Position numbers and translations under genes: made by a program. 64,000 nt of DNA from Candidatus Magnetocorallium paracelense (GTDB lineage: Bacteria > Nitrospirota > Thermodesulfovibrionia > Thermodesulfovibrionales > Magnetobacteriaceae), in assembly GCA_029001845.1 (NCBI GenBank), contig JAREWP010000033.1, forward strand, positions 186,001 through 250,000. Direction: 5' to 3'. The notes under the pieces were generated by a model, which saw nothing but the letters and a program-made list of their open reading frames with translations, was not told the origin of the DNA and did no database searches. Of the stretch, positions 6,488-26,164 are shown in pieces (within the stretch, counting starts at the first letter, position 1; every line of letters starts with the position of its first letter).

Positions 6488-9184
6488 ATGTATAATACAG
6501 AAGAGAAGCAGGAAGTGATTAGAAAAAGAGCAGGCGCCTCATTCTTAAGACTCACGCCCTTAACCGTGAAGGTTCTCATTATGGTCGGGCTTGTGGTAAC
6601 ACTGATATGGCCTCTTCTCGATTATTATCAAAGCAAAAGATTGAAAGAAGTCTTTCTCTCCCAACTTTCCAAAAAGCTCAAATATCAGGCTCACCATGGA
6701 AGAATTGAGCTGGATTCATATATTAAAAGATATCATCAGGCAGTTAAGGTATTTACGGTTCTCGAATCGTTTATTGCATATCTCAATTCCATGGAAGGAA
6801 GAGAGGAAGAGGAGCCTCCTCTGATATACGATCAACCTCCCCCCTGGTATCCAAGACGAACAATAGCCCGCTCCTTTGTATTGCCACGATTTGCAATATT
6901 GATTAATGATAGGGGTAAAGTTCTGGAAATCTACAGGACCAGACAGGAAGAAATCCCGGATTCGCTGATAAATCCCGATGCCATCATCCTCCAGTTAAGC
7001 ATTGATCAGAATTACATGACCACTTTAAACGGGCAGCCTTTTTTGTTGACATCAAAGAGAACGGCAGCAACCAAAAGCGGGGAATCTTATGTTCTCATGC
7101 TCGCATCTCCATTGGACCAGGAGTTTCTGGTCAGAGCTCTGGGCCATCATGACCAGGAACAGAGAGTCGCTTTAATAACAGGAGAGAATCCCTACATATT
7201 GGCGAGTAACAATCCCGATAAGCTGACCAAAGGCGCTCTGCTGAACGATCTGGAGGATAAATTCCTTATAGAGGGGAAATCTTTCTTTGACTATGGCTCT
7301 TCGGACCTGATGCTCCAGTTCGTTTCATTTATTCCTTTGGACGAAGTAAGAATCATGACTGAAGAGATGCTCTCCTCAAACAGGCAGCGGAGCGCTGTAG
7401 TCGTTTTTGTGATCGTTGTTGCTCTGCTTCAGATAATGGGATGGATTACTCACAGGATTGCGATCCTGACTAAGCTGGTAATGGGCTTTTCCGAAGAGAT
7501 TCTGGGCAAAAAAATGGAAGGGAACCTGAGAGGGGATAAGCTGTTTATACTTGAGCAGAGATTTTCCGAACTCATTGAAGATGTTATCTCTTCTCGTAAG
7601 GGGATGGAAAAAAAGGCTATCGAACTGCAAAAGGCAAAGGATGAGTTGGAAGATAAAGTGACCGAACGTACTAAGGAGTTAAGCAGTACGAATGTGCAGC
7701 TTCTGACAGAGGTCAGAGAGAGGAAGAAAGCGGAGAGAAAGATAGAATTCAATTATAATGTTCAGCGAGTGATAAGTTCCGTTTTGAGAGTCTCCCTGGA
7801 ACAGACAACTCTTAAAAAACTGCTTGAGCGTACAATCGATTTTATTAAAAGCGTACCGGAGATTTCCTTTAAATCCAACTGCGCCATTTTTATTACAGAT
7901 GAAGGGGGCGACAGAGATGGAGAGAACAACAGACATCTTATTTTAAAGGCTGAAAGCGGTTTTGACTCGTCGTTGATAGAGAAGTGCTCCATTGTACCCT
8001 TTGGAAAATGTTTATGCGGGAAAGCCGCTTTGTCCGGAGAGATTGTATTTGTCGACAGGGTCGATCACAAACACGAACCATTGTCCGATTCCGCGCCCGA
8101 TCACGGCCACTATTGCGTTCCCATTAAATCCGGCGATAATGTAACAGGCGTTATAGCGATATATCTTGAAAAGGGACATATAAGAAATCCAATGGAAGAA
8201 GATTTTCTGCAGTCCCTTGCAGATACGCTTGCAGGTATTATAGAGCGGAAAAGGATCGAAGCCGAACTCAATGCTTCAAACGAACTTTTTCAAACATTGA
8301 TCGATAACATTCCCGACTCCATCTATTTTAAGGATATGGAGAATCGATTTGTGAAGGTAAATCGAGCGAAGGCCGTGAATTCGAGTACAACGATAGATGA
8401 TATGACCGGAAAAACCGATTACGATTATCTTCCCGACGATCAGGCCGAAGGAGCCTTTAAAGACGACGACCTGGTAAAGGAGACCGGTCAACCTATTATA
8501 GATAAGGTGGAACGTATATCGCACAAAGAGGGCATCGAGAAGTGGGTTTCCGTTGTAAAAATACCGTGGTACGGTAAAAATCGGGAGATTATTGGAACAA
8601 TCGGTATTTCCAGGGATATCAGCAAACTCAAAGCTACTGAAGACAAACTCAGAGACAGTGAACAAAAACTGAAATACCTTGCCCACCACGATGCACTGAC
8701 AGGACTCCCCAATCGACTGCTTTTTAATGACAGAATAAAACAGGTTCTTTCCTATTCAAGGAGAAACAACAAGATGTTTGCCGTTATGTTTCTCGATCTC
8801 GACCATTTTAAGGATATTAATGACACTCTCGGCCATGACGCCGGTGACGATTTACTTAAAGAAGTGGCGGAGAGACTCAAAGGATGTGTGCGCGGAAGCG
8901 ATACTGTCGCTCGTCAGGGTGGGGACGAATTTATCGTTCTCCTGATCGATATTAACGGTATCGACGTTGTTAAGCTTGTGGCAGGTAAAATTGTCGAACT
9001 TCTAAGCAAGAGCTTTACTCTAAAAGGAGAAGAGCGTTTTATCTCTACCAGCATCGGGATAAGTGTTTTCCCGGACAACGGTGACGATGTAGAAGAACTG
9101 GTAAAAAAAGCCGATATTGCTCTCTATGATGCAAAGAGCAAGGGAAGAAAGAACTATAAATTTTATAAGGCCGGGGATCGGTGA
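6488..9184 (+). CDS. Membrane-bound sensor diguanylate cyclase (periplasmic sensor, GAF, PAS, GGDEF)
   Basis: 898 residues. TM1 (about 27-46), a ~250-residue extracytoplasmic region of Cache-like length, TM2 (302-320), a HAMP-like/coiled-coil linker (about 321-425), GAF (about 430-590, with PFGKCLCGKAAL), PAS (about 600-715, with DNIPDSIYFKDMENRF) and GGDEF (about 730-895). The active site GGDEF is intact at 811-815, and an RxxD product-inhibition site (R802, D805) lies five residues upstream. It should therefore make c-di-GMP from two GTP with feedback inhibition. No EAL domain. The periplasmic ligand is unknown. Its GAF and PAS are paralogous to those of the kinase at 3156. Confidence 0.92.
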   Translation: MYNTEEKQEVIRKRAGASFLRLTPLTVKVLIMVGLVVTLIWPLLDYYQSKRLKEVFLSQLSKKLKYQAHHGRIELDSYIKRYHQAVKVFTVLESFIAYLNSMEGREEEEPPLIYDQPPPWYPRRTIARSFVLPRFAILINDRGKVLEIYRTRQEEIPDSLINPDAIILQLSIDQNYMTTLNGQPFLLTSKRTAATKSGESYVLMLASPLDQEFLVRALGHHDQEQRVALITGENPYILASNNPDKLTKGALLNDLEDKFLIEGKSFFDYGSSDLMLQFVSFIPLDEVRIMTEEMLSSNRQRSAVVVFVIVVALLQIMGWITHRIAILTKLVMGFSEEILGKKMEGNLRGDKLFILEQRFSELIEDVISSRKGMEKKAIELQKAKDELEDKVTERTKELSSTNVQLLTEVRERKKAERKIEFNYNVQRVISSVLRVSLEQTTLKKLLERTIDFIKSVPEISFKSNCAIFITDEGGDRDGENNRHLILKAESGFDSSLIEKCSIVPFGKCLCGKAALSGEIVFVDRVDHKHEPLSDSAPDHGHYCVPIKSGDNVTGVIAIYLEKGHIRNPMEEDFLQSLADTLAGIIERKRIEAELNASNELFQTLIDNIPDSIYFKDMENRFVKVNRAKAVNSSTTIDDMTGKTDYDYLPDDQAEGAFKDDDLVKETGQPIIDKVERISHKEGIEKWVSVVKIPWYGKNREIIGTIGISRDISKLKATEDKLRDSEQKLKYLAHHDALTGLPNRLLFNDRIKQVLSYSRRNNKMFAVMFLDLDHFKDINDTLGHDAGDDLLKEVAERLKGCVRGSDTVARQGGDEFIVLLIDINGIDVVKLVAGKIVELLSKSFTLKGEERFISTSIGISVFPDNGDDVEELVKKADIALYDAKSKGRKNYKFYKAGDR

Positions 9185-10732: not shown

Positions 10733-11440
10733 ATGGATAGTAACACCAATATCACCGACAGTTTAAGAAGGTTTCCATGCCTTAGTTTTTTAGAAGATAA
10801 CGAGCTTTCCGATTTACGCCAAAGGGCTGTTCAAAGGACGATTAATAAGGGAGATATTCTTTTTACCGAAACTGAACCGGTTAAAAATTTTTATTTAATC
10901 AATAACGGCCTGATAAAGCTTTATAAAAGCTCGATAGAGGGTAAAGAGCTGATAATAAATTTTCTCTCCGGCGGAGATCATTTCTGCCTGCCCTTTAAAA
11001 GAGAGAAGGAGACCAACCTTGTCAGCGCCGTTGCCCTTGAAAAAACGTCTCTTATTTCATTACCGAGCCGTGAGTTGCACAAACTCCTTACAAAAACGCT
11101 TAACGCCACGGGAATAAGGATTATAGAGGGACTTTGCAACAAGATAGGAGCACTTTCCGAGATGGTGGAGGACCTCGCCTTCAGAGACGTGGAAACGAGA
11201 GTCCTGAAGACCATTTTCAGGCTCTGCGAGCAGTCAGGTGACAAAGAAGACGCCATTGTTCTCATGTTAACGCATCAGGATATTGCATCTATGACCGGAA
11301 CGGTTAGAGAGCTGGTCTCCAGGGTGATTTCAAAGTTAAAGAAAGAAAAGATTGTTTTAAGTAGTAATGTCAAAGGATTGAGAATCGATAAGAGAAAACT
11401 GGAATTGTTTTTGTCCGATAAATATCCTGTCGGGATTTAA
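10733..11440 (+). CDS. Crp/Fnr-family transcriptional regulator
   Basis: 235 residues. N-terminal cyclic-nucleotide-binding-like beta barrel (about 15-125), a dimerisation helix, and a C-terminal winged helix whose recognition region reads LTHQDIASMTGTVRELVSRVI. There is no N-terminal four-cysteine cluster, so it is not a classical Fe-S FNR. The phosphate-binding cassette of true cAMP receptors is not evident, so the effector is unknown (NO, redox or another ligand are possible). Convergent with pyrD, with two bases between the stop codons. Confidence 0.85.
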   Translation: MDSNTNITDSLRRFPCLSFLEDNELSDLRQRAVQRTINKGDILFTETEPVKNFYLINNGLIKLYKSSIEGKELIINFLSGGDHFCLPFKREKETNLVSAVALEKTSLISLPSRELHKLLTKTLNATGIRIIEGLCNKIGALSEMVEDLAFRDVETRVLKTIFRLCEQSGDKEDAIVLMLTHQDIASMTGTVRELVSRVISKLKKEKIVLSSNVKGLRIDKRKLELFLSDKYPVGI

Positions 11441-17906: not shown

Positions 17907-20012
17907 ATGAAAAAAACAATCTCTTTAATTCTTGTCATCCTTTCCCTCTCCTACTTCGGACTTGAATTTTTCTTTAGCGGAAAGAAAGATATCTATTATA
18001 TCGGAATAACAGGGCCAATGGGAGGAAAAGCGGGAAATGACGGTATCTCCATGAAGCGCGGAGCCGAGATGGCTCTTAAGGAGATTCAACGACAGGGAAA
18101 ACTCAAGAACATCGAGCTCCAACTATTAATCCATGACGATCAAAGCGATTACAGCTCAAAATACGGCCCTATAGAAATCGCCAGAAAAATTTCTCAAAAT
18201 AAAAAGGTTCTTGCCGTTATTGGCCATAAATTCAGCGTACCTACTATTGCGGCGGCGCCCATATACGCCAAGCACCAAATCCCTCTCATCTCTCCAACGG
18301 CCACGGCCCCTGAAGCAACTGCCGTTAGTGAATGGGCCTTTAGCATGATTTGCAATGATCTTTATCAAAGCAGGTTTTTAGCCAACTATGTGGTCCATGC
18401 ATTGAATAAAAAAAGAATTGCCATAATTCATTCCGAAGACGGTTACGGAAAATCTTTAAAAACTCATTTTATCCGGGAGCTGCAAAAAAATAAAGTAATT
18501 CCCCACACTGTCATTGAGCTACCTGAAAAAGATATGGAACCTGTTCATTTGAAGGTGCATTTGGAACATCTGAAAAAGGCCGACATCATTTTTCTGGCCA
18601 TGCTTAGCGATAATGCCGCTAATGTTTTGAAATACTTAAAAAACAAACAGGTTCAAACCGATTTTATCGGAAACGAGGTATTGGGAAATCCAAAGTTTAT
18701 TCATGATGCAGGCGTTTATTCGGAAAATGTATATGCCGTTACCTCCTTTCTTCAAAACCTTTTGGGCATTGATGCGCGCCTCTATGCACAGCAATACAGG
18801 AAAACCTATTTAAAAGAGCCTGACTGGATTTCTTCTCACAGTTATGAGGCTGTTCAGCTTATTGCCAATGCCATTGAAAAAGTAGGCCCCGATCGTTTTT
18901 CCATCAAAGATTACCTTAAACAAATCCGAAGCCCCCATGAATCGGTAAAAGGTATTGGAGGAAACATTTACTTTGACCGATACGGGTCGAATCAAAGAGC
19001 CATCTATATCGGGCAGGTAAAAAACGGGAGGTTCATCTCTTCCGAATTTCAACTCATCCAGGCGCCCTACCCGGAACTTCTGCCTGCCGGTGAGCAAAAA
19101 GAGTTGGTTCATTTTTACAAACAGGCTCTCAAACGTACAACCATTGTTTTTACAGGGGTTCATATCAAAGAGATTAAAGAAATCAATATTGATGAATCCT
19201 ACTATACCGCTGATTTTAATTTGTGGTTTCGCTGGAACGGTAAAGACGAAAAAAATTTGGACTTTGAACTGCTCAACGGGCAAATCGAAAATCAGGCAAT
19301 TCTGGAAAAATATGAAAATCCCGAAACCGGGGAGCATTTCATCTCCTATGAAATCAAAGCAACCCTTAAAGAAGAATTCCCCTTACACGATTATCCCTTT
19401 GATAAACAAATTCTAGGCATTCAGGTGAAACCATTAAAAGCCCCGACTACGGAAATTCTTTTGGTAGCCGATTTGGATGAGAGTGAAGGATTTCTGCCTA
19501 TCGATCTGGGCATTTGGAGGGAGAGCCTCCATCTTCAGTATGTAGACCTGAAAGAATTCCTTTACAGCTTTCGGAATCCTCAATTCGATCAAAAAATGTA
19601 CACATTGGATTACTCCCTTTTTCACTATGAAATTCGCATGGCACGTGAAGTTTCCGACTATCTCCTCAAAATGATTCCTTTGCTGTTTATGTTGATAATA
19701 GTAGGAATATCCTTTTTCATGGATATCACCCGCAACTCAGGCGCGCGTTTCGATATCGGTTTACTGGGATTGCTTACGGCCGTGGCTTTTCACCAGACGG
19801 TGATCAGTGTGGGATATCTCATTCGGGCGGACTTTTTCTTTATCTGCACTTATTTTTTAATCTCCCTCATCATTGTAGAAACGGTCATTGTAGATCATTT
19901 TTATCACTCTCAAAGGGAGAAACTGGCTTTGGCAATTGATCGATATTCCTTTTCAGGATTTGTAATGATTATTGTGGGACTTGCCATTGCACTTTTTGGC
20001 GATTTTATATAA
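17907..20012 (+). CDS. Periplasmic-binding-protein / pentameric ligand-gated ion channel fusion
   Basis: 701 residues. An N-terminal signal/anchor segment (1-24) is followed by a LivK-type type I periplasmic-binding fold (about 29-385: YIGITGPMGG..., ...LIHDDQSD, PLISPTATAPE, IAIIHSEDGYG). A Cys-loop-receptor-type extracellular domain follows (about 410-575): YTADFNLWFRW and the Pro-loop signature LHDYPFDKQILGIQV (493-507), without the eukaryotic cysteine pair. Four TM segments follow (about 586-606, 614-636 pore-lining M2, 643-664, 682-700) with a short M3-M4 loop, as in prokaryotic channels. It is probably an inner-membrane homopentamer gated by a small molecule (amino-acid-like, by analogy with LivK). 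A TTGACT/TAGTAT promoter lies upstream. First gene of the signalling cluster. Confidence 0.85.
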   Translation: MKKTISLILVILSLSYFGLEFFFSGKKDIYYIGITGPMGGKAGNDGISMKRGAEMALKEIQRQGKLKNIELQLLIHDDQSDYSSKYGPIEIARKISQNKKVLAVIGHKFSVPTIAAAPIYAKHQIPLISPTATAPEATAVSEWAFSMICNDLYQSRFLANYVVHALNKKRIAIIHSEDGYGKSLKTHFIRELQKNKVIPHTVIELPEKDMEPVHLKVHLEHLKKADIIFLAMLSDNAANVLKYLKNKQVQTDFIGNEVLGNPKFIHDAGVYSENVYAVTSFLQNLLGIDARLYAQQYRKTYLKEPDWISSHSYEAVQLIANAIEKVGPDRFSIKDYLKQIRSPHESVKGIGGNIYFDRYGSNQRAIYIGQVKNGRFISSEFQLIQAPYPELLPAGEQKELVHFYKQALKRTTIVFTGVHIKEIKEINIDESYYTADFNLWFRWNGKDEKNLDFELLNGQIENQAILEKYENPETGEHFISYEIKATLKEEFPLHDYPFDKQILGIQVKPLKAPTTEILLVADLDESEGFLPIDLGIWRESLHLQYVDLKEFLYSFRNPQFDQKMYTLDYSLFHYEIRMAREVSDYLLKMIPLLFMLIIVGISFFMDITRNSGARFDIGLLGLLTAVAFHQTVISVGYLIRADFFFICTYFLISLIIVETVIVDHFYHSQREKLALAIDRYSFSGFVMIIVGLAIALFGDFI

Positions 20013-20299: not shown

Positions 20300-21808
20300 A
20301 TGTCCAATTGGATAAAAAAAACAAAATTGAGTACGCGAATTTTTATATTGGTTTCATTTTTACTTACCATGATAATCGCGACGAGTTCTTTCGCGCTGTT
20401 AAAAGTTCACCATTTGGGAATGGAAATCGATGAAATCGCCCATGAAGAGATTCCATTGGCCAGGATTGTAACCAAGCTGACGGAATATATGTTGGATCAG
20501 GCCATGCGTTTTGGGGAAATCCTGCAATATGGAAGTCTGGGCGTCAAAGAAAAATTTGAAGAGGAAGTCCATGATTTTATCGATGCCGGAGAGCGGATTA
20601 ATGATGTGATCAGAGAGGGAAGGAAAATAGCCGAACACAGTATCGAAATTATTCATGATGAGACAAAGAAAAAAGAGCTGGAGCATATCAAACAAATTTT
20701 GGGACAAATCGAAAAAGAGCATGGCGATTATGAACATCACAGCGAAGAGTTGTTTCGAGAAGTTGCTTTAATCAATTTTGGAGAAGAGAGCTCGGAAAGT
20801 AGGGCTCATCGAATAGAAGCGCTCGAGAGGATGGAAAAGGAAACCAAACATCTTGAAGAACTTATTGAGGAAATTTTAGAGGTGATTGATAATTTGACAA
20901 TGCAAATCACCCATGAAGCAGAGACAGAGCAAAGGGAAGCCTTTATTTATCTGATTCTTTTAATCATTTTTTCTATCACTTCGGGATTGGCCTTGAGTTT
21001 ATTTATTATTAGAAATACAGTGCTTCCTTTGAAGGAGTCCATCCTCCAGTTGCTTCAGGGGGCTCAGGAATTTCAGGCAGCCTCCCTGCAAATAGCCAAT
21101 GGCAGTACGTCCCTATCCTATGAATCGGAAAAACAGGCATCCGCCGTTGATAACACCACACATATCATAGACAGCATAAACGATCTTGCCGGGACCAGCG
21201 TGTCTTTGGCGGACCGTCAGGAGCAGCTTATAAAGGAAACCACCACTATTTCCAACACGACTCACGCCAATATCAATGAGATTATGAGCAGCAGCCGTGA
21301 AGTCGCAGATTTTGGAGAGAAAATTGGACCATTAATTAAATCCTTAAATGATATGGCGATGCAATTAAATATGCTGGCCACAAATATCTCTGCCGAGGTA
21401 ACACGCACTCAGGTCGCCCAAAGCATCGTCGTTTTCACTGACGAGATGAGAAGTTTGGCGAAAGAAACCGTTAACCTGGCCCGTGAGGCCGATGAACTGA
21501 CAATGAAATCGGGGATGAATATTCGAAAAGGTTTGGAACTGGCCATGAACACACAGGAAGCCTACAACGAAATTATGGATATTATGCAAAGGCTGAACAA
21601 AGCATGCGATGAGAGTTTGGAAACTTCCAGGCTGGGACAGGAAAAGATCACCGGTGCAAACGGAGCAATCAATCAAATCAATGAGGCCATTCAGAACAAT
21701 GCATCCGTATCGGAGCAAAACGCTGCGGCCAGTGAAGAGTTGAGCGCTCAGGCCCAGGCTCTACTGGATGTTGCAGAGAGCTTAAGGGTTCTTGTGGGGA
21801 AATCATAA
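20300..21808 (+). CDS. Two-TM chemoreceptor-like protein with degenerate signalling tip
   Basis: 502 residues. TM1 (about 12-34), a helical extracytoplasmic domain (35-213; four-helix-bundle type, rich in Glu, His and Lys), TM2 (about 215-237) and a long cytoplasmic coiled coil. The hairpin region NMLATNISAEVTRTQVAQSI (357-376) aligns with the NLLALNAAIEAARAGE tip of chemoreceptors and is followed by a recognisable TDEMRSLAKETV. The Glu and Arg of the tip remain, but the GE-G-RG segment is lost. The C-terminus SVSEQNAAASEELSAQAQ is MCP-like. It lacks a clear HAMP domain. Coupling to CheA/CheW is therefore uncertain. It may serve the neighbouring channels as sensor or clustering scaffold (inference from context). 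Confidence 0.75.
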   Translation: MSNWIKKTKLSTRIFILVSFLLTMIIATSSFALLKVHHLGMEIDEIAHEEIPLARIVTKLTEYMLDQAMRFGEILQYGSLGVKEKFEEEVHDFIDAGERINDVIREGRKIAEHSIEIIHDETKKKELEHIKQILGQIEKEHGDYEHHSEELFREVALINFGEESSESRAHRIEALERMEKETKHLEELIEEILEVIDNLTMQITHEAETEQREAFIYLILLIIFSITSGLALSLFIIRNTVLPLKESILQLLQGAQEFQAASLQIANGSTSLSYESEKQASAVDNTTHIIDSINDLAGTSVSLADRQEQLIKETTTISNTTHANINEIMSSSREVADFGEKIGPLIKSLNDMAMQLNMLATNISAEVTRTQVAQSIVVFTDEMRSLAKETVNLAREADELTMKSGMNIRKGLELAMNTQEAYNEIMDIMQRLNKACDESLETSRLGQEKITGANGAINQINEAIQNNASVSEQNAAASEELSAQAQALLDVAESLRVLVGKS

Positions 21809-21864: not shown

Positions 21865-22932
21865 ATGATTCGCTTTAGTCAAAGAATTGTTAATCACAAA
21901 CTATTTGAGCCATTCATCATTGGTGTCATTATCCTGTGCGGGATTATTGTGGGTCTGGAAACGTCTGAATCATTCGTAGGACAGTATGGTCAATTGTTCT
22001 ATGTGTTCTACAGCATTATCCTGGTAATATTCATTTTGGAAGCGCTGTTAAAGATGACTGCTTTGGCGCCCGATTCTTTTAGATATTTTAAAAACGGCTG
22101 GAATCTTTTTGATTTTTTCGTAATTATTATCGCCCTCATTCCAAACACCGGACAATTCGCTATGGTAGCCAGATTGGTCCGTTTATTAAGAGTTCTCCGT
22201 CTGATTTCCGCCGTTCCGGAGATACGGCTCATTGTCAATACTCTGCTCCGTTCTATTCCAAGCCTGGCCAATATACTTGTGCTGTTATTTTTATTATTTT
22301 ACATCTATGGCGTTACCGGTTATTTTCTATACCACACACATGACCCACTCCATTGGGAGACTCTCGGAATGAGCATGATTACCCTTTTTCGAGTGCTCAC
22401 GTTGGAAGACTGGACCGATATCATGTATAAGGCCATGGAGCTGAATTTCTATCATTGGACCTATTTTGTAAGCTTTGTGATCATCACGACATTCGTTGTG
22501 ATCAATATGTTTGTTGCTATTATTCTTAACAATCTGGACGAAACCAAAAAAGAACACAGCCAGGAAAAACATGAGCTTAGGCAATTAGAAGAAGTTCTCT
22601 CTTCCAAGCAAATACGCGTACAATGTCAACTGCCGGCAACGATAAAAACAGAGGAACTTACGGCAAAAACCGTTATCAGGAATATCAGCATAAAGGGATG
22701 TCGTGTATTATTCCGCAATAAAGACGCCTTGATAAATAAATTTGCAATAGGTGAAAATATATCTTTAACAAGCGTCCTTCCCTTTGCCGAATCGGAGATA
22801 AATTTCTCCGGTGAAATTCGAAGTAAAAATGAAGGGAAGTATATAGCGTCTCTTGGAATTGAATTTGGTGAGGTTAATAAGGAAACACTCAAAACTTTAA
22901 CGAATTTTATCGTTTCCAAATTGAATGTCTGA
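21865..22932 (+). CDS. NaChBac-type voltage-gated cation channel with C-terminal PilZ-like domain
   Basis: 355 residues. Single-repeat 6-TM channel: S1 (about 13-32), S2 with the charge-transfer motif F56-x-x-E59-x-x-x-K63, S3 with N80/D83, S4 with four Arg at three-residue spacing (R103, R106, R109, R112), S5, a pore helix with selectivity filter TLEDWTD (179-185), S6 (203-222) and a short coiled coil. The remainder (about 250-352) looks like PilZ: an LPATI strand, then R-NISIKGCRVLF (272-282) and LGIEF. The first PilZ arginine motif RxxxR is incomplete, so c-di-GMP binding is uncertain. The filter has Asp at the two positions where engineered CavAb gained Ca2+ selectivity, so Ca2+ or mixed permeation is inferred. 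56 bases after the chemoreceptor-like gene. Confidence 0.85.
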   Translation: MIRFSQRIVNHKLFEPFIIGVIILCGIIVGLETSESFVGQYGQLFYVFYSIILVIFILEALLKMTALAPDSFRYFKNGWNLFDFFVIIIALIPNTGQFAMVARLVRLLRVLRLISAVPEIRLIVNTLLRSIPSLANILVLLFLLFYIYGVTGYFLYHTHDPLHWETLGMSMITLFRVLTLEDWTDIMYKAMELNFYHWTYFVSFVIITTFVVINMFVAIILNNLDETKKEHSQEKHELRQLEEVLSSKQIRVQCQLPATIKTEELTAKTVIRNISIKGCRVLFRNKDALINKFAIGENISLTSVLPFAESEINFSGEIRSKNEGKYIASLGIEFGEVNKETLKTLTNFIVSKLNV

Positions 22933-22983
22933 TGTTTAGCCTTGTCCGAAATCAAGCTGCCGCAGGCAGCAATTTTTTTCATA

Positions 22984-23027
22984 CTCCCTCTCCCCCTTTG
23001 AAGGGGGAGAGAGTTGGGGTGAGGGGG
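22984..23027. repeat. CCCCCTTTGAAGGGGG hairpin, family C copy 2
   Basis: CTCCCTCTCCCCCTTTGAAGGGGGAGAG is a perfect-type hairpin followed by a G-rich tail, GTTGGGGTGAGGGGG, that ends two bases before the ATG of the cyclase gene. The repeat therefore forms the whole translation-initiation leader of that gene. Confidence 0.7.
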
Positions 23028-23029
23028 TA

Positions 23030-24928
23030 ATGACGCTTCTAAAGAATATTATCGATTCTTTCACATGGCAGTTGTTGCTGATTGCGGCAACTCTATACAC
23101 AGTGTTCGGTATTCCCCTGTATATGCTCTCCCTTCCCGGTAAGCTTAACGATTTACCTTATATTGTCATAATATCTGTTGTATTTATTATCTTTGTACTG
23201 GATTGTATTTCCAGAGTCGTTGTTTACAGATGGGTTTATATAAAAACATTAGGCTTTTGGCTGGATTTTCTTTCCATCGTGTTTCTTATTCTGGGGACAC
23301 CGGGTTTGTTATATTATTTCTTCTCTTATACAAACGATAATTTATTGATTAACCCGCGAGTCTTCCGTCTTACCAGATTAATCATCAGACTTACTCCTGT
23401 CGGCAGATTACCAAGGTTTATCAATAAGGAGGAAGAATTCAATCATCAATCGGAAACCGGGATATATGAACAGCAGGCAAGTACTTTACAAATGCAAATA
23501 AACGAGAGATTCAGTACGCTTGTTATTATTTTTGTTATTTTGGCCATTCTGATTGTCCCTGTTACAAATATTATACTGATTACGAACCCTTATCAAAAAA
23601 TATTGAATAATTTAACAAAGATCGATAAAAACGAAAAACTGTTGCATCATTATTTGGAAGTAATTAAATTTGACAAAAGCATATTGCAGGTTAAACGCAC
23701 CGGCAAAGGGGACGCGACAATTTTATTGGATAATAACAATCCTCAAATACAGGCATATGAACGATTGTTTTATACAAATAACAATTTCAGGTTAATTGTA
23801 TCGAATCGGGCAATACAAGCAAAATACGCCATATCGGACTGTATTATGGCGCTGTTCATAATAATGATTACCATTGTATTTAATCTTAGATTGTCAGTTG
23901 TAACCAAAAGGATTCTCATCGATCCCTTACATAAACTAAAAAGCCTCATTAATAATGCGATTCGTCAAAATAAGGAATTAACCTTTCTGGAAAACATCCG
24001 CGATACTGAACCGATCGTATTTTTGGAAAAGGTTTTTATTCCACTACTCCAAAGGGTGATTGCCGCAGTAAATACAGAGTCAAAGGAATCGATACTGGAA
24101 TTAGACGAATCAAAGCAGAATATTATCAAGAAAAGAGATTGGGCTATTTTATTTTCCGATGTCGAGGGATACGTTACAATCACCGAAACATTCCAATCAG
24201 AATCTTTTAAAATTATGAATAAATATTTCGAACACTGCTCTAAGGTTGTTTTTAAGTATAAAGGAGATATCTTTGAAACCACCGGTGATGGCTTGATTAT
24301 CACTTTCGATGGTGAGGAGAAAGAGAAACGCGCTTTTCTTGCCGCCATAGAGATCATCGAAACATTGGACAGAGATATAAAGAATCACAAATGGAATAAC
24401 ATTATCGATCATCCTGAATGGACAGAAGAGTGGACAAAAAGGATTCGTACCAGATTGGGTATTCATGTCGGTTCTGTTTCAACAGGAAGAATCGGAACGG
24501 ACAAAATTTTTCGATACGGAATGGTAGGTGAAACAGCCGGCTTGTCTGCGCGATTGGAATCGGCAAATAAACACTATGGTACTTACCTCCTATTCTCCGA
24601 TAAAATATTTACTTTCGTGCCTGCCGATTATATTGAATTTGTCAGGCAGGTGGACTATGCAAATGTCGTAGGTAAAAATAAGCCCATTGCTATTTACACA
24701 TATGATTTTAATCGCTCCGCCAATTATCATGACTTCAGAAAAGACTATAATTCAGGCATCTACGACTATTTAGCAGGAAAATGGGATGTAGCCTGCAAGC
24801 ATCTGACCAAAGCCCATAATTTATGGCCTGACGAAAGGGCTACTTTAAATTTATTGGAAAGAATGAATGAGAATAACTCGATATGCCCTCCTGATTGGGA
24901 TGGCTCGGTTCAATTGAAAAAGAAATAA
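23030..24928 (+). CDS. Class III nucleotide cyclase with N-terminal voltage-sensor-like domain
   Basis: 632 residues. S1-S4-like bundle: S2 with F55-x-x-D58-x-x-x-R62 and S3 with Asp79 match the charge-transfer centre of voltage sensors; S4 has R110, R113, R116 and R120. A fifth TM (161-183), an extracytoplasmic domain (~184-266), TM6 (268-287) and a HAMP-like linker lead to the cyclase domain (about 368-545): metal Asp377 in FSDVEGY and Asp420 in TTGDGL, then HVGSVSTGRIG and SARLES with Arg508. The purine-specificity lysine is Glu416, as in guanylyl cyclases; the second specificity position is Gly497, and the transition-state Asn is Gly504. Product (cGMP or cAMP) and activity are therefore open. 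The tail ends PPDWDGS, as in many bacterial adenylate cyclases. Confidence 0.8.
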   Translation: MTLLKNIIDSFTWQLLLIAATLYTVFGIPLYMLSLPGKLNDLPYIVIISVVFIIFVLDCISRVVVYRWVYIKTLGFWLDFLSIVFLILGTPGLLYYFFSYTNDNLLINPRVFRLTRLIIRLTPVGRLPRFINKEEEFNHQSETGIYEQQASTLQMQINERFSTLVIIFVILAILIVPVTNIILITNPYQKILNNLTKIDKNEKLLHHYLEVIKFDKSILQVKRTGKGDATILLDNNNPQIQAYERLFYTNNNFRLIVSNRAIQAKYAISDCIMALFIIMITIVFNLRLSVVTKRILIDPLHKLKSLINNAIRQNKELTFLENIRDTEPIVFLEKVFIPLLQRVIAAVNTESKESILELDESKQNIIKKRDWAILFSDVEGYVTITETFQSESFKIMNKYFEHCSKVVFKYKGDIFETTGDGLIITFDGEEKEKRAFLAAIEIIETLDRDIKNHKWNNIIDHPEWTEEWTKRIRTRLGIHVGSVSTGRIGTDKIFRYGMVGETAGLSARLESANKHYGTYLLFSDKIFTFVPADYIEFVRQVDYANVVGKNKPIAIYTYDFNRSANYHDFRKDYNSGIYDYLAGKWDVACKHLTKAHNLWPDERATLNLLERMNENNSICPPDWDGSVQLKKK

Positions 24929-24940
24929 CACTGTAAACAT

Positions 24941-26164
24941 ATGCAATATAAGATTGAAAATTATCTTATGGACCAGACCATATTTAAAGAAGGCGATGTG
25001 GCGAATCATGCCTATCTCATCAAAAGGGGATCAGTAAGAATCTTTAAACACATAAATGATGTTCACGTCCACCTGACCGATTTATTGGGAGGAGATGTAT
25101 TTGGAGAGCTAAGCGTACTCAGAAAAGAGACTCGAACTGCCTCTGCAATGGCGATTGAGTATACCGAGCTTGTGGTAATTAATCAATCAACGCTGCTCAC
25201 GCATATCAAAAAAAGTTCTCCAGTTATCAGATCCATTTTTAGAAAATTGATGAGCAGGGTTGTCGATTTAACGGGAAGATTATCTGAAACGCAAACACAG
25301 ACCAATGATCAGAGTACATTTATGGCTATATGCAACATTTTGGAAATGATGCATACCATACACCTTCATGCACCTGTAAGCGATCGCTCTTCAGATCACG
25401 ATTTGGGAATCAATTACCTCAATCTGTCAAAGAAAATCAGGGATATCATGCCGATCTCTCAATACGATATCGGTGAGACCATAAAAAAACTTCATGAAAT
25501 CGAGATTATAGAGGTGCAATACAAAAAGTCTGCTTCAACAGATAAATCTTCCGAACCGGTTAAGGGGAACACCAGGGAGCATAAGAACGATTCCGCCGAA
25601 AAATTCATCAAAATTTTGTACCCCGATAACTTTCTCCACTTTACAAAAAAGTTCTATAGTGAGTTGCAAGAATTCCAACCTGACCCGGTGGCAGATGAGA
25701 TCGACTTTATCGATATCGATGATTTTGCAAGTATTGTCAAAACCAGTTCCAAAATAATCTACAAAAAAATTTGCGCCGGAGAGATACCGGAGAGTATTTT
25801 TTGTATAAACAGGCCTGAGGCTGTCGAATGGGCAAGCGAGATGGGAGAGGATTATTTTAAAAAAGCAGGAAAGCCGCAGGTAGAGCTCGAGGATATCGAG
25901 TGTATTGATGACATTGTCTATGTGAAAGATGTCATCCTTCAGGAAGCGTTAAGCAGAGTTGGACATAATAAATTATGCACCCTCACGTTAATGGCGGACG
26001 AGAACGCCAGGTCAATTATATTCAGAAATATCTCCTCCAAACTGGCGACAATCATTAAAGAAGAGATGGAAACAAAGGTAATCATCGATAAGGTGGAGGC
26101 TTACGATATAGAAGAGGAGTTCATTGAAAAGATAAAGGAACTTGTGAACGAGTCATGTGAATGA
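24941..26164 (+). CDS. Cyclic-nucleotide-binding protein with HTH-like and FliG-C-like domains
   Basis: 407 residues, soluble. CNB domain (about 5-110) with an intact phosphate-binding cassette GDVFGELSVLRKETRTASA (51-69): Glu56, Arg65 and, right after it, Thr66, the 'RTA' form found in cGMP-dependent kinases and in many bacterial CNBs. A helical middle region follows, then an excisionase-like helix-turn-helix (about 256-300, DIDDFASIVKTSSKIIYKKI). The C-terminus (about 318-402) resembles the FliG C-domain: DDIVYVKDVILQEALSRV and FRNISSKLATIIKEEM. Twelve bases after the cyclase, so it is the obvious reader of that enzyme's product. The output may be a protein scaffold or motor-like partner rather than DNA; no flagellar genes are near. 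Confidence 0.72.
   Translation: MQYKIENYLMDQTIFKEGDVANHAYLIKRGSVRIFKHINDVHVHLTDLLGGDVFGELSVLRKETRTASAMAIEYTELVVINQSTLLTHIKKSSPVIRSIFRKLMSRVVDLTGRLSETQTQTNDQSTFMAICNILEMMHTIHLHAPVSDRSSDHDLGINYLNLSKKIRDIMPISQYDIGETIKKLHEIEIIEVQYKKSASTDKSSEPVKGNTREHKNDSAEKFIKILYPDNFLHFTKKFYSELQEFQPDPVADEIDFIDIDDFASIVKTSSKIIYKKICAGEIPESIFCINRPEAVEWASEMGEDYFKKAGKPQVELEDIECIDDIVYVKDVILQEALSRVGHNKLCTLTLMADENARSIIFRNISSKLATIIKEEMETKVIIDKVEAYDIEEEFIEKIKELVNESCE

Follow-up and report, generated by a model that had tools for sequence, protein, structure and literature searches.

Pore-less voltage sensors that drive an enzyme, the voltage-sensing phosphatases (VSPs), are known from eukaryotes, and channel-linked cyclases are known from protozoa. 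The latter are adenylyl cyclases of Paramecium, Tetrahymena, and Plasmodium, and in Paramecium cAMP formation follows the membrane potential (Weber et al. 2004, as cited in the accessible text of PMC10651576 and PMC12414865). According to a 2025 viewpoint, cyclase/ion-channel fusions appear limited to protozoans (PMC12414865); in the accessible text of a 2023 review of reported VSD proteins, the only cyclase mentioned is that of protozoans, a protein bearing a K+ pore (PMC10651576). Our literature search turned up no voltage-sensor cyclase without a pore and, in bacteria, no voltage-sensor cyclase at all. A preliminary description of the locus treated here had called a bacterial voltage-controlled cyclase unknown, in agreement with the accessible text of both articles (PMC12414865 and PMC10651576). 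Sensor and enzyme are each of a known kind; the searchable literature contains neither their joining without a pore nor a bacterial host for it.

The locus lies within a 64,000-nucleotide stretch of Candidatus Magnetocorallium paracelense DNA (here, the window; contig JAREWP010000033.1, positions 186,001 to 250,000). At 23030..24928 (+ strand), the window encodes a 632-aa fusion of a voltage-sensor-like domain to a class III nucleotidyl cyclase. We hold it to be about an even prospect that this protein works as a nucleotidyl cyclase under the control of membrane potential, with guanylyl cyclase the probable type. Like the protozoan channel-linked cyclases, it carries an N-terminal S1-S4 sensor and a C-terminal class III cyclase in a single chain, but those proteins are eukaryotic with a K+ pore after the sensor, whereas this one is pore-less, bacterial, and equipped with GTP-type purine residues. 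Like Ci-VSP, it links an S1-S4 sensor without a pore to an enzyme in the cytoplasm, and the sensor folds match in an alignment-informed model. Ci-VSP, however, is a lipid phosphatase, while the enzyme here is a class III cyclase preceded by two extra transmembrane (TM) helices and a HAMP-like linker; the Pfam scan gave a cyclase and no VSP-type, PTEN-like phosphatase domain. In the sperm exchanger SLC9C1 (sNHE), a voltage sensor likewise controls a nonchannel protein with a cyclic-nucleotide link, but SLC9C1 binds the nucleotide and transports ions, whereas nucleotide synthesis is the predicted role of the fusion protein. From residue 161 to its end, the protein shares the plan of bacterial TM-loop-TM-HAMP class III adenylyl cyclases, from which it differs by the four-helix sensor in front and by other purine residues.

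The reading frame is open for 662 codons and offers no upstream ATG, GTG, or TTG as an alternative start. The preliminary description had placed a 632-aa protein at these coordinates, as ORF analysis and translation reproduced, and its layout of sensor, TM helix, extracytoplasmic part, TM helix, and cyclase was borne out by domain and topology analysis. The four-helix voltage-sensor-like domain, delimited by sequence at aa ~10-126, consists of S1 (aa 12-33; 23063..23128; located by hydrophobicity), S2 (aa 43-64; 23156..23221; hydrophobicity and alignment), S3 (aa 76-97; 23255..23320; an invariant alignment column), and S4 (aa 104-124; 23339..23401; hydrophobicity, alignment, and topology), all on the + strand, as are the segments that follow. 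A 36-aa cytoplasmic linker (aa 125-160; 23402..23509), assigned from position and charge, is presumed to be the coupling element. Beyond it lie TM5 (aa 161-184; 23510..23581), an extracytoplasmic loop of ~80 aa without a Pfam family, pore, or selectivity filter (aa 185-266; 23582..23827), and TM6 (aa 267-289; 23828..23896), both helices being placed by hydrophobicity. The HAMP-like linker (aa 290-355; 23897..24094) is a sequence reading only, with no match to Pfam HAMP. The class III cyclase domain (aa 367-560; 24128..24709), identified by PF00211 and its catalytic residues, precedes a C-terminal tail (24737..24928) that resembles the tails of other cyclases in the same genome. Across the whole 632 aa, Pfam returned Guanylate_cyc as the one confident domain (PF00211, aa 370-514, E = 6.5e-10). 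G+C content is even across the gene except in the loop region, where it falls to 32%; an assembly error is a conceivable source of the fusion.

Searched alone, residues 1-135 matched the Pfam Ion_trans profile (PF00520) with an E value of 6e-6 and a score that barely exceeds the cutoff (26.1 versus 25 bits). The match spans aa 11-126 and profile positions 2-117, that is, S1-S4 only. No Ion_trans match was among those listed at E <= 1 when the full 632 aa was searched, and the best phmmer matches of the N terminus to solved structures were weak ones of S1-S2 to KCNH channels (E = 0.05-0.23). A score of just 26.1 bits, Foldseek E values that are weak throughout (>0.1; best, 0.13), and the ability of composition alone to make helical membrane proteins match would all suit an ordinary six-helix cyclase anchor whose likeness to a voltage sensor arose by chance. 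We consider such a coincidence very improbable. A hidden Markov model (HMM) of channel sensors, built with the fusion protein left out, gave it 12.8 bits; among 2000 shuffles per scheme, none that preserved hydropathy reached this score (0/2000), and 14/2000 did so when hydropathy was kept and charges were also fixed. The match also runs through four helices in order, its conserved residues are the functional ones, and no other cyclase fusion was found by a six-frame PF00520 scan of 40 and then 296 genomes.

The residues themselves were compared in an alignment of 14 sequences, namely, the fusion protein and 13 channel sensors from the same phylum. Only F55, D79, R110, and R116 are invariant in this alignment, the R113 column is at least 90% conserved, and D58 of S2 aligns with the Glu/Asp of the channel sensors. 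The preliminary description had read an F-x-x-D-x-x-x-R motif in S2, which corresponds to the charge-transfer Phe F55 with D58 and R62, and an S3 Asp in FWLDF (aa 76-80), which is D79. It had also read four S4 arginines at roughly every third residue. All four are present; strict three-residue spacing holds for R110, R113, and R116 alone, with R120 at +4. The other three keep the channel register, from which R120 is shifted by one residue, so that S4 is best described as three in-register arginines plus one. Overall, the earlier assignment of voltage-sensor homology stands on the PF00520 match, residue conservation, the shuffle nulls, topology, and the alignment-based AF2 model described below.

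The insertion energy of S4, from a re-implementation of the published scale, was 4.4 kcal/mol; the channel S4s of the same set mostly fell at 3.5-4.9. Six helices with the N terminus inside is the only topology that satisfies the positive-inside rule (14 K/R in, 6 out) with a cytoplasmic cyclase. A nontransmembrane S4, raised earlier as a counterindication, was not what we found: insertion energy, topology, and the AF2 helix all predict S4 to be transmembrane. With the alignment as input, AF2 gave a model (pLDDT 74.9, pTM 0.62) with helices at 11-34, 41-71, 74-89, and 103-121, matching S1 to S4. The best 50 structural matches listed for this model were all voltage-gated channels or the Ci-VSP sensor, and it fits voltage sensors at 2.4-2.9 A: CatSper (Z 11.4, 2.4 A over 119 residues), NavAb (Z 10.8, 2.7 A over 116 residues), and the Ci-VSP sensor (Z 10.2, 2.7 A over 123 residues). 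The structural comparison with channel and Ci-VSP sensors that had been proposed earlier thus gave matches to both; because channel sequences informed the model, it is a test of compatibility and not independent proof. The single-sequence AF2 model was poor (pLDDT 58.7, pTM 0.29), and its sole listed structural match, from this poor model, was a Nav1.5 sensor fragment covering residues 12-76 (Z 6.1).

No pore domain with a P-loop follows S4, where the PF00520 match ends, and no selectivity-filter motif was found in aa 185-266. TM5-TM6 as a decayed S5-S6 pore is conceivable but unsupported: the linker is much longer, the filter motif is absent, and the Pfam match stops at S4. The other matches in the PF00520 scan were pore-bearing channel-like frames or pore-region fragments, with the exception of one weak sensor-only fragment whose contig also carries an adjacent pore fragment. 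The complete TM5-loop-TM6-HAMP-like-cyclase unit after the sensor could work alone, and six-helix anchors of class III cyclases serve as receptors in other systems (according to the accessible text of PMC4821796). Together with the out-of-register S4 arginine, these points favor a true voltage-sensor homologue that is now a membrane anchor, or that senses lipid, pH, or a partner protein or channel, with the loop and HAMP-like linker controlling the cyclase. We judge this unlikely on balance, though a reading to be taken seriously, as the joint retention of F55, D58, D79, and R110/113/116 would be unexpected in a domain freed from voltage sensing.

The cyclase domain scored 39.3 bits against PF00211, above the curated cutoff of 21.9; both of its metal-binding Asp residues are kept (D377 and D420), as is R508, the transition-state Arg. 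Its purine-position residues are E416, R495, and G497. Most of the compared cyclases of the order instead have K/D/T, with Lys and Thr as purine residues and, two positions ahead of the Thr, a residue that is acidic or otherwise polar. In the alignment, the Cya2 structure 2w01 has E..K-Y-G, i.e., Glu, Gly, and Lys at the third position, and R495 occupies the position of the Lys in Cya2 and in bPGC. Cya2 carries the E-G purine pair (PMC4215837), its E488K substitution yields adenylyl cyclase activity (PMC5995499), and bPGC, a guanylyl cyclase obtained by engineering, carries K197E/D265K/T267G (PMC4569695). From the Cya2-type E416/G497 pair and these two precedents, GTP is the likelier substrate, and cGMP rather than cAMP the likelier product. 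The Synechocystis Cya2 is also a bacterial class III enzyme with Glu/Gly at the purine positions, and it too has a basic residue two places ahead of the Gly; it differs in having a CHASE2 sensor and the standard Asn, where the fusion protein has the voltage-sensor domain and Gly for Asn. A closer relative of Cya2 than the fusion is a second predicted guanylyl cyclase of the same genome (L107 1138-2619, contig C59 of G000), which is Cya2-like, with E-K-G and the usual Asn.

The transition-state Asn is replaced by Gly (G504), while the other compared cyclases keep the Asn, save one with Lys. This substitution could reduce or abolish activity and, with a catalytic domain ~30% identical at most to any relative found, would be in keeping with a weak or dead pseudo-cyclase that signals by nucleotide or partner binding. 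Membership in the class III family is not in doubt, and it is activity that G504 renders uncertain. A pseudo-cyclase nevertheless appears improbable to us: a dead enzyme need not keep both metal Asp residues, the Arg of the transition state, and a purine pair that is consistently of the GTP type, and Ma1120 is active with Ala at the Asn position (PMC4215837). This precedent leaves the expectation of activity lowered, not removed.

The fusion of sensor and cyclase was seen in one genome only, and the host genome is the sole representative of its genus among the genomes compared. For the sensor half (aa 1-359), a 396-genome sample of the phylum yielded no homologue, and the matches across the order, searched in all of its 176 genomes, did not rise above noise. 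A contig scan of the whole protein by short peptide patterns, a method that can miss distant relatives, retrieved none. In plasmids, tblastn found nothing that covers the sensor, with the best matches in the cyclase half.

A gene on the same strand begins 12 bp after the cyclase gene (24941..26164, +) and encodes a cNMP-binding domain (aa 7-89; cNMP_binding, 5.7e-17) and a FliG_C domain (aa 322-403; FliG_C, 2.5e-8). Full-length orthologues with ~40% identity occur in two genomes of another family in the order, where motA and motB follow immediately downstream and abut them (L243 7154-9784; L244 9276-11870). No cyclase or channel adjoins the orthologues in those two genomes, and the pairing of the voltage-sensor cyclase with the cNMP-binding FliG_C gene was seen in this genome only. 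Genome G006 encodes a shorter relative without FliG_C, near a gene that by eye reads as flagellin-like. The present genome has its own FliG and FliM. These arrangements hint that the flagellar motor is the destination of the cyclic nucleotide, and the cNMP-binding FliG_C protein is possibly a direct cyclic-nucleotide input to that motor. No earlier report of such a protein coupled to motA-motB was found in our literature search.

Upstream of the cyclase gene, 21865..22932 (+) encodes a six-helix voltage-gated Na+/Ca2+-type channel (PF00520, E = 1.8e-48) with a PilZ domain (PF07238, E = 7.3e-11). We note that its filter region, TLEDWTD, has extra acidic residues and may be Ca2+ permeable, and that its PilZ domain keeps NxSxxG with an RxxxR motif that looks degenerate. 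In 80 named loci with a related voltage-gated channel, phmmer found no PilZ-related tail and no cyclase, ligand-gated channel, or receptor resembling those of this cluster. A terminator-like hairpin followed by a T-run (22956..22970, +; consensus match only) lies between the channel and cyclase genes and speaks against their forming one operon. Because this hairpin separates the two, the firm gene pair is that of the cyclase and the cNMP-binding FliG_C protein. The hairpin, this partner with its motA-motB-linked orthologues, the guanylyl-cyclase-type purine residues, and the lack of the transition-state Asn had not figured in the preliminary description. Within 22956-23029, the hairpin is followed by a palindromic, C/G-rich, repeat-like stretch (CTCCCTCTCCCCCTTT...GAAGGGGGAGAG) that abuts the cyclase start codon; the ribosome-binding site of the cyclase gene may come from this stretch.

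Domain search placed a periplasmic binding domain joined to a Cys-loop-type ligand-gated channel still farther upstream, at 17907..20012 (+); fusions of periplasmic-binding domains to Cys-loop-type pentameric channels were noted earlier in proteobacteria (PMC549065). Between the two channel genes lies one for a methyl-accepting chemotaxis protein (MCP)-like protein (20300-21808, +) with a weak MCPsignal score, whose hairpin tip departs from the canonical kinase-binding tip and which may not couple to CheA. The window also encodes a CRP-type regulator with a cNMP-binding domain (10733-11440) and a GAF-PAS-GGDEF diguanylate cyclase (6488-9184). Contig C55 of the same genome (G000; L068 1474-2733) encodes a six-helix channel that ends in a C-terminal cNMP-binding domain and is CNG/SthK-like in sequence; through it, cyclic nucleotide could act back on the membrane potential. 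The cluster as a whole might form a bacterial electrical path in which the ligand-gated and PilZ channels shift the potential, the sensor cyclase reads the shift and responds with cGMP, and this nucleotide is handed directly to motor or stator by the cNMP-binding FliG_C protein; we regard this extended scheme as rather doubtful.

For a membrane-potential-regulated cyclase, we propose the following mechanism. A pore-less, ion-channel-type S1-S4 domain would have been put before a standard TM-loop-TM-HAMP-like-cyclase chain. On a change in membrane potential, the S4 arginines would move as gating charges past the charge-transfer center (F55, D58, and D79), and this movement would pull on the 36-aa cytoplasmic linker and TM5. 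Coupling through TM6 and the HAMP-like helices would then alter the geometry of a catalytically active cyclase homodimer, such that output of cGMP (less likely cAMP) follows voltage. The co-oriented downstream product would bind the cyclic nucleotide, with cGMP as its probable ligand, and could act on the flagellar motor or stator through FliG_C.

If this is true, the pore-less bacterial version would be the smallest known device converting membrane potential to a cyclic-nucleotide signal, would make bacterial reading of the cell's own electrical signals testable, and could be developed into a tool for making cGMP under electrical control. Action of the cNMP-binding FliG_C protein on the motor, should it occur, would give the flagellum a direct cyclic-nucleotide input, for which the c-di-GMP brake YcgR is the comparison. 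Given the sensor-cyclase fusion and a neighboring gene that links cNMP to the motor, this bacterium may convert an electrical change into a chemical signal that steers swimming.
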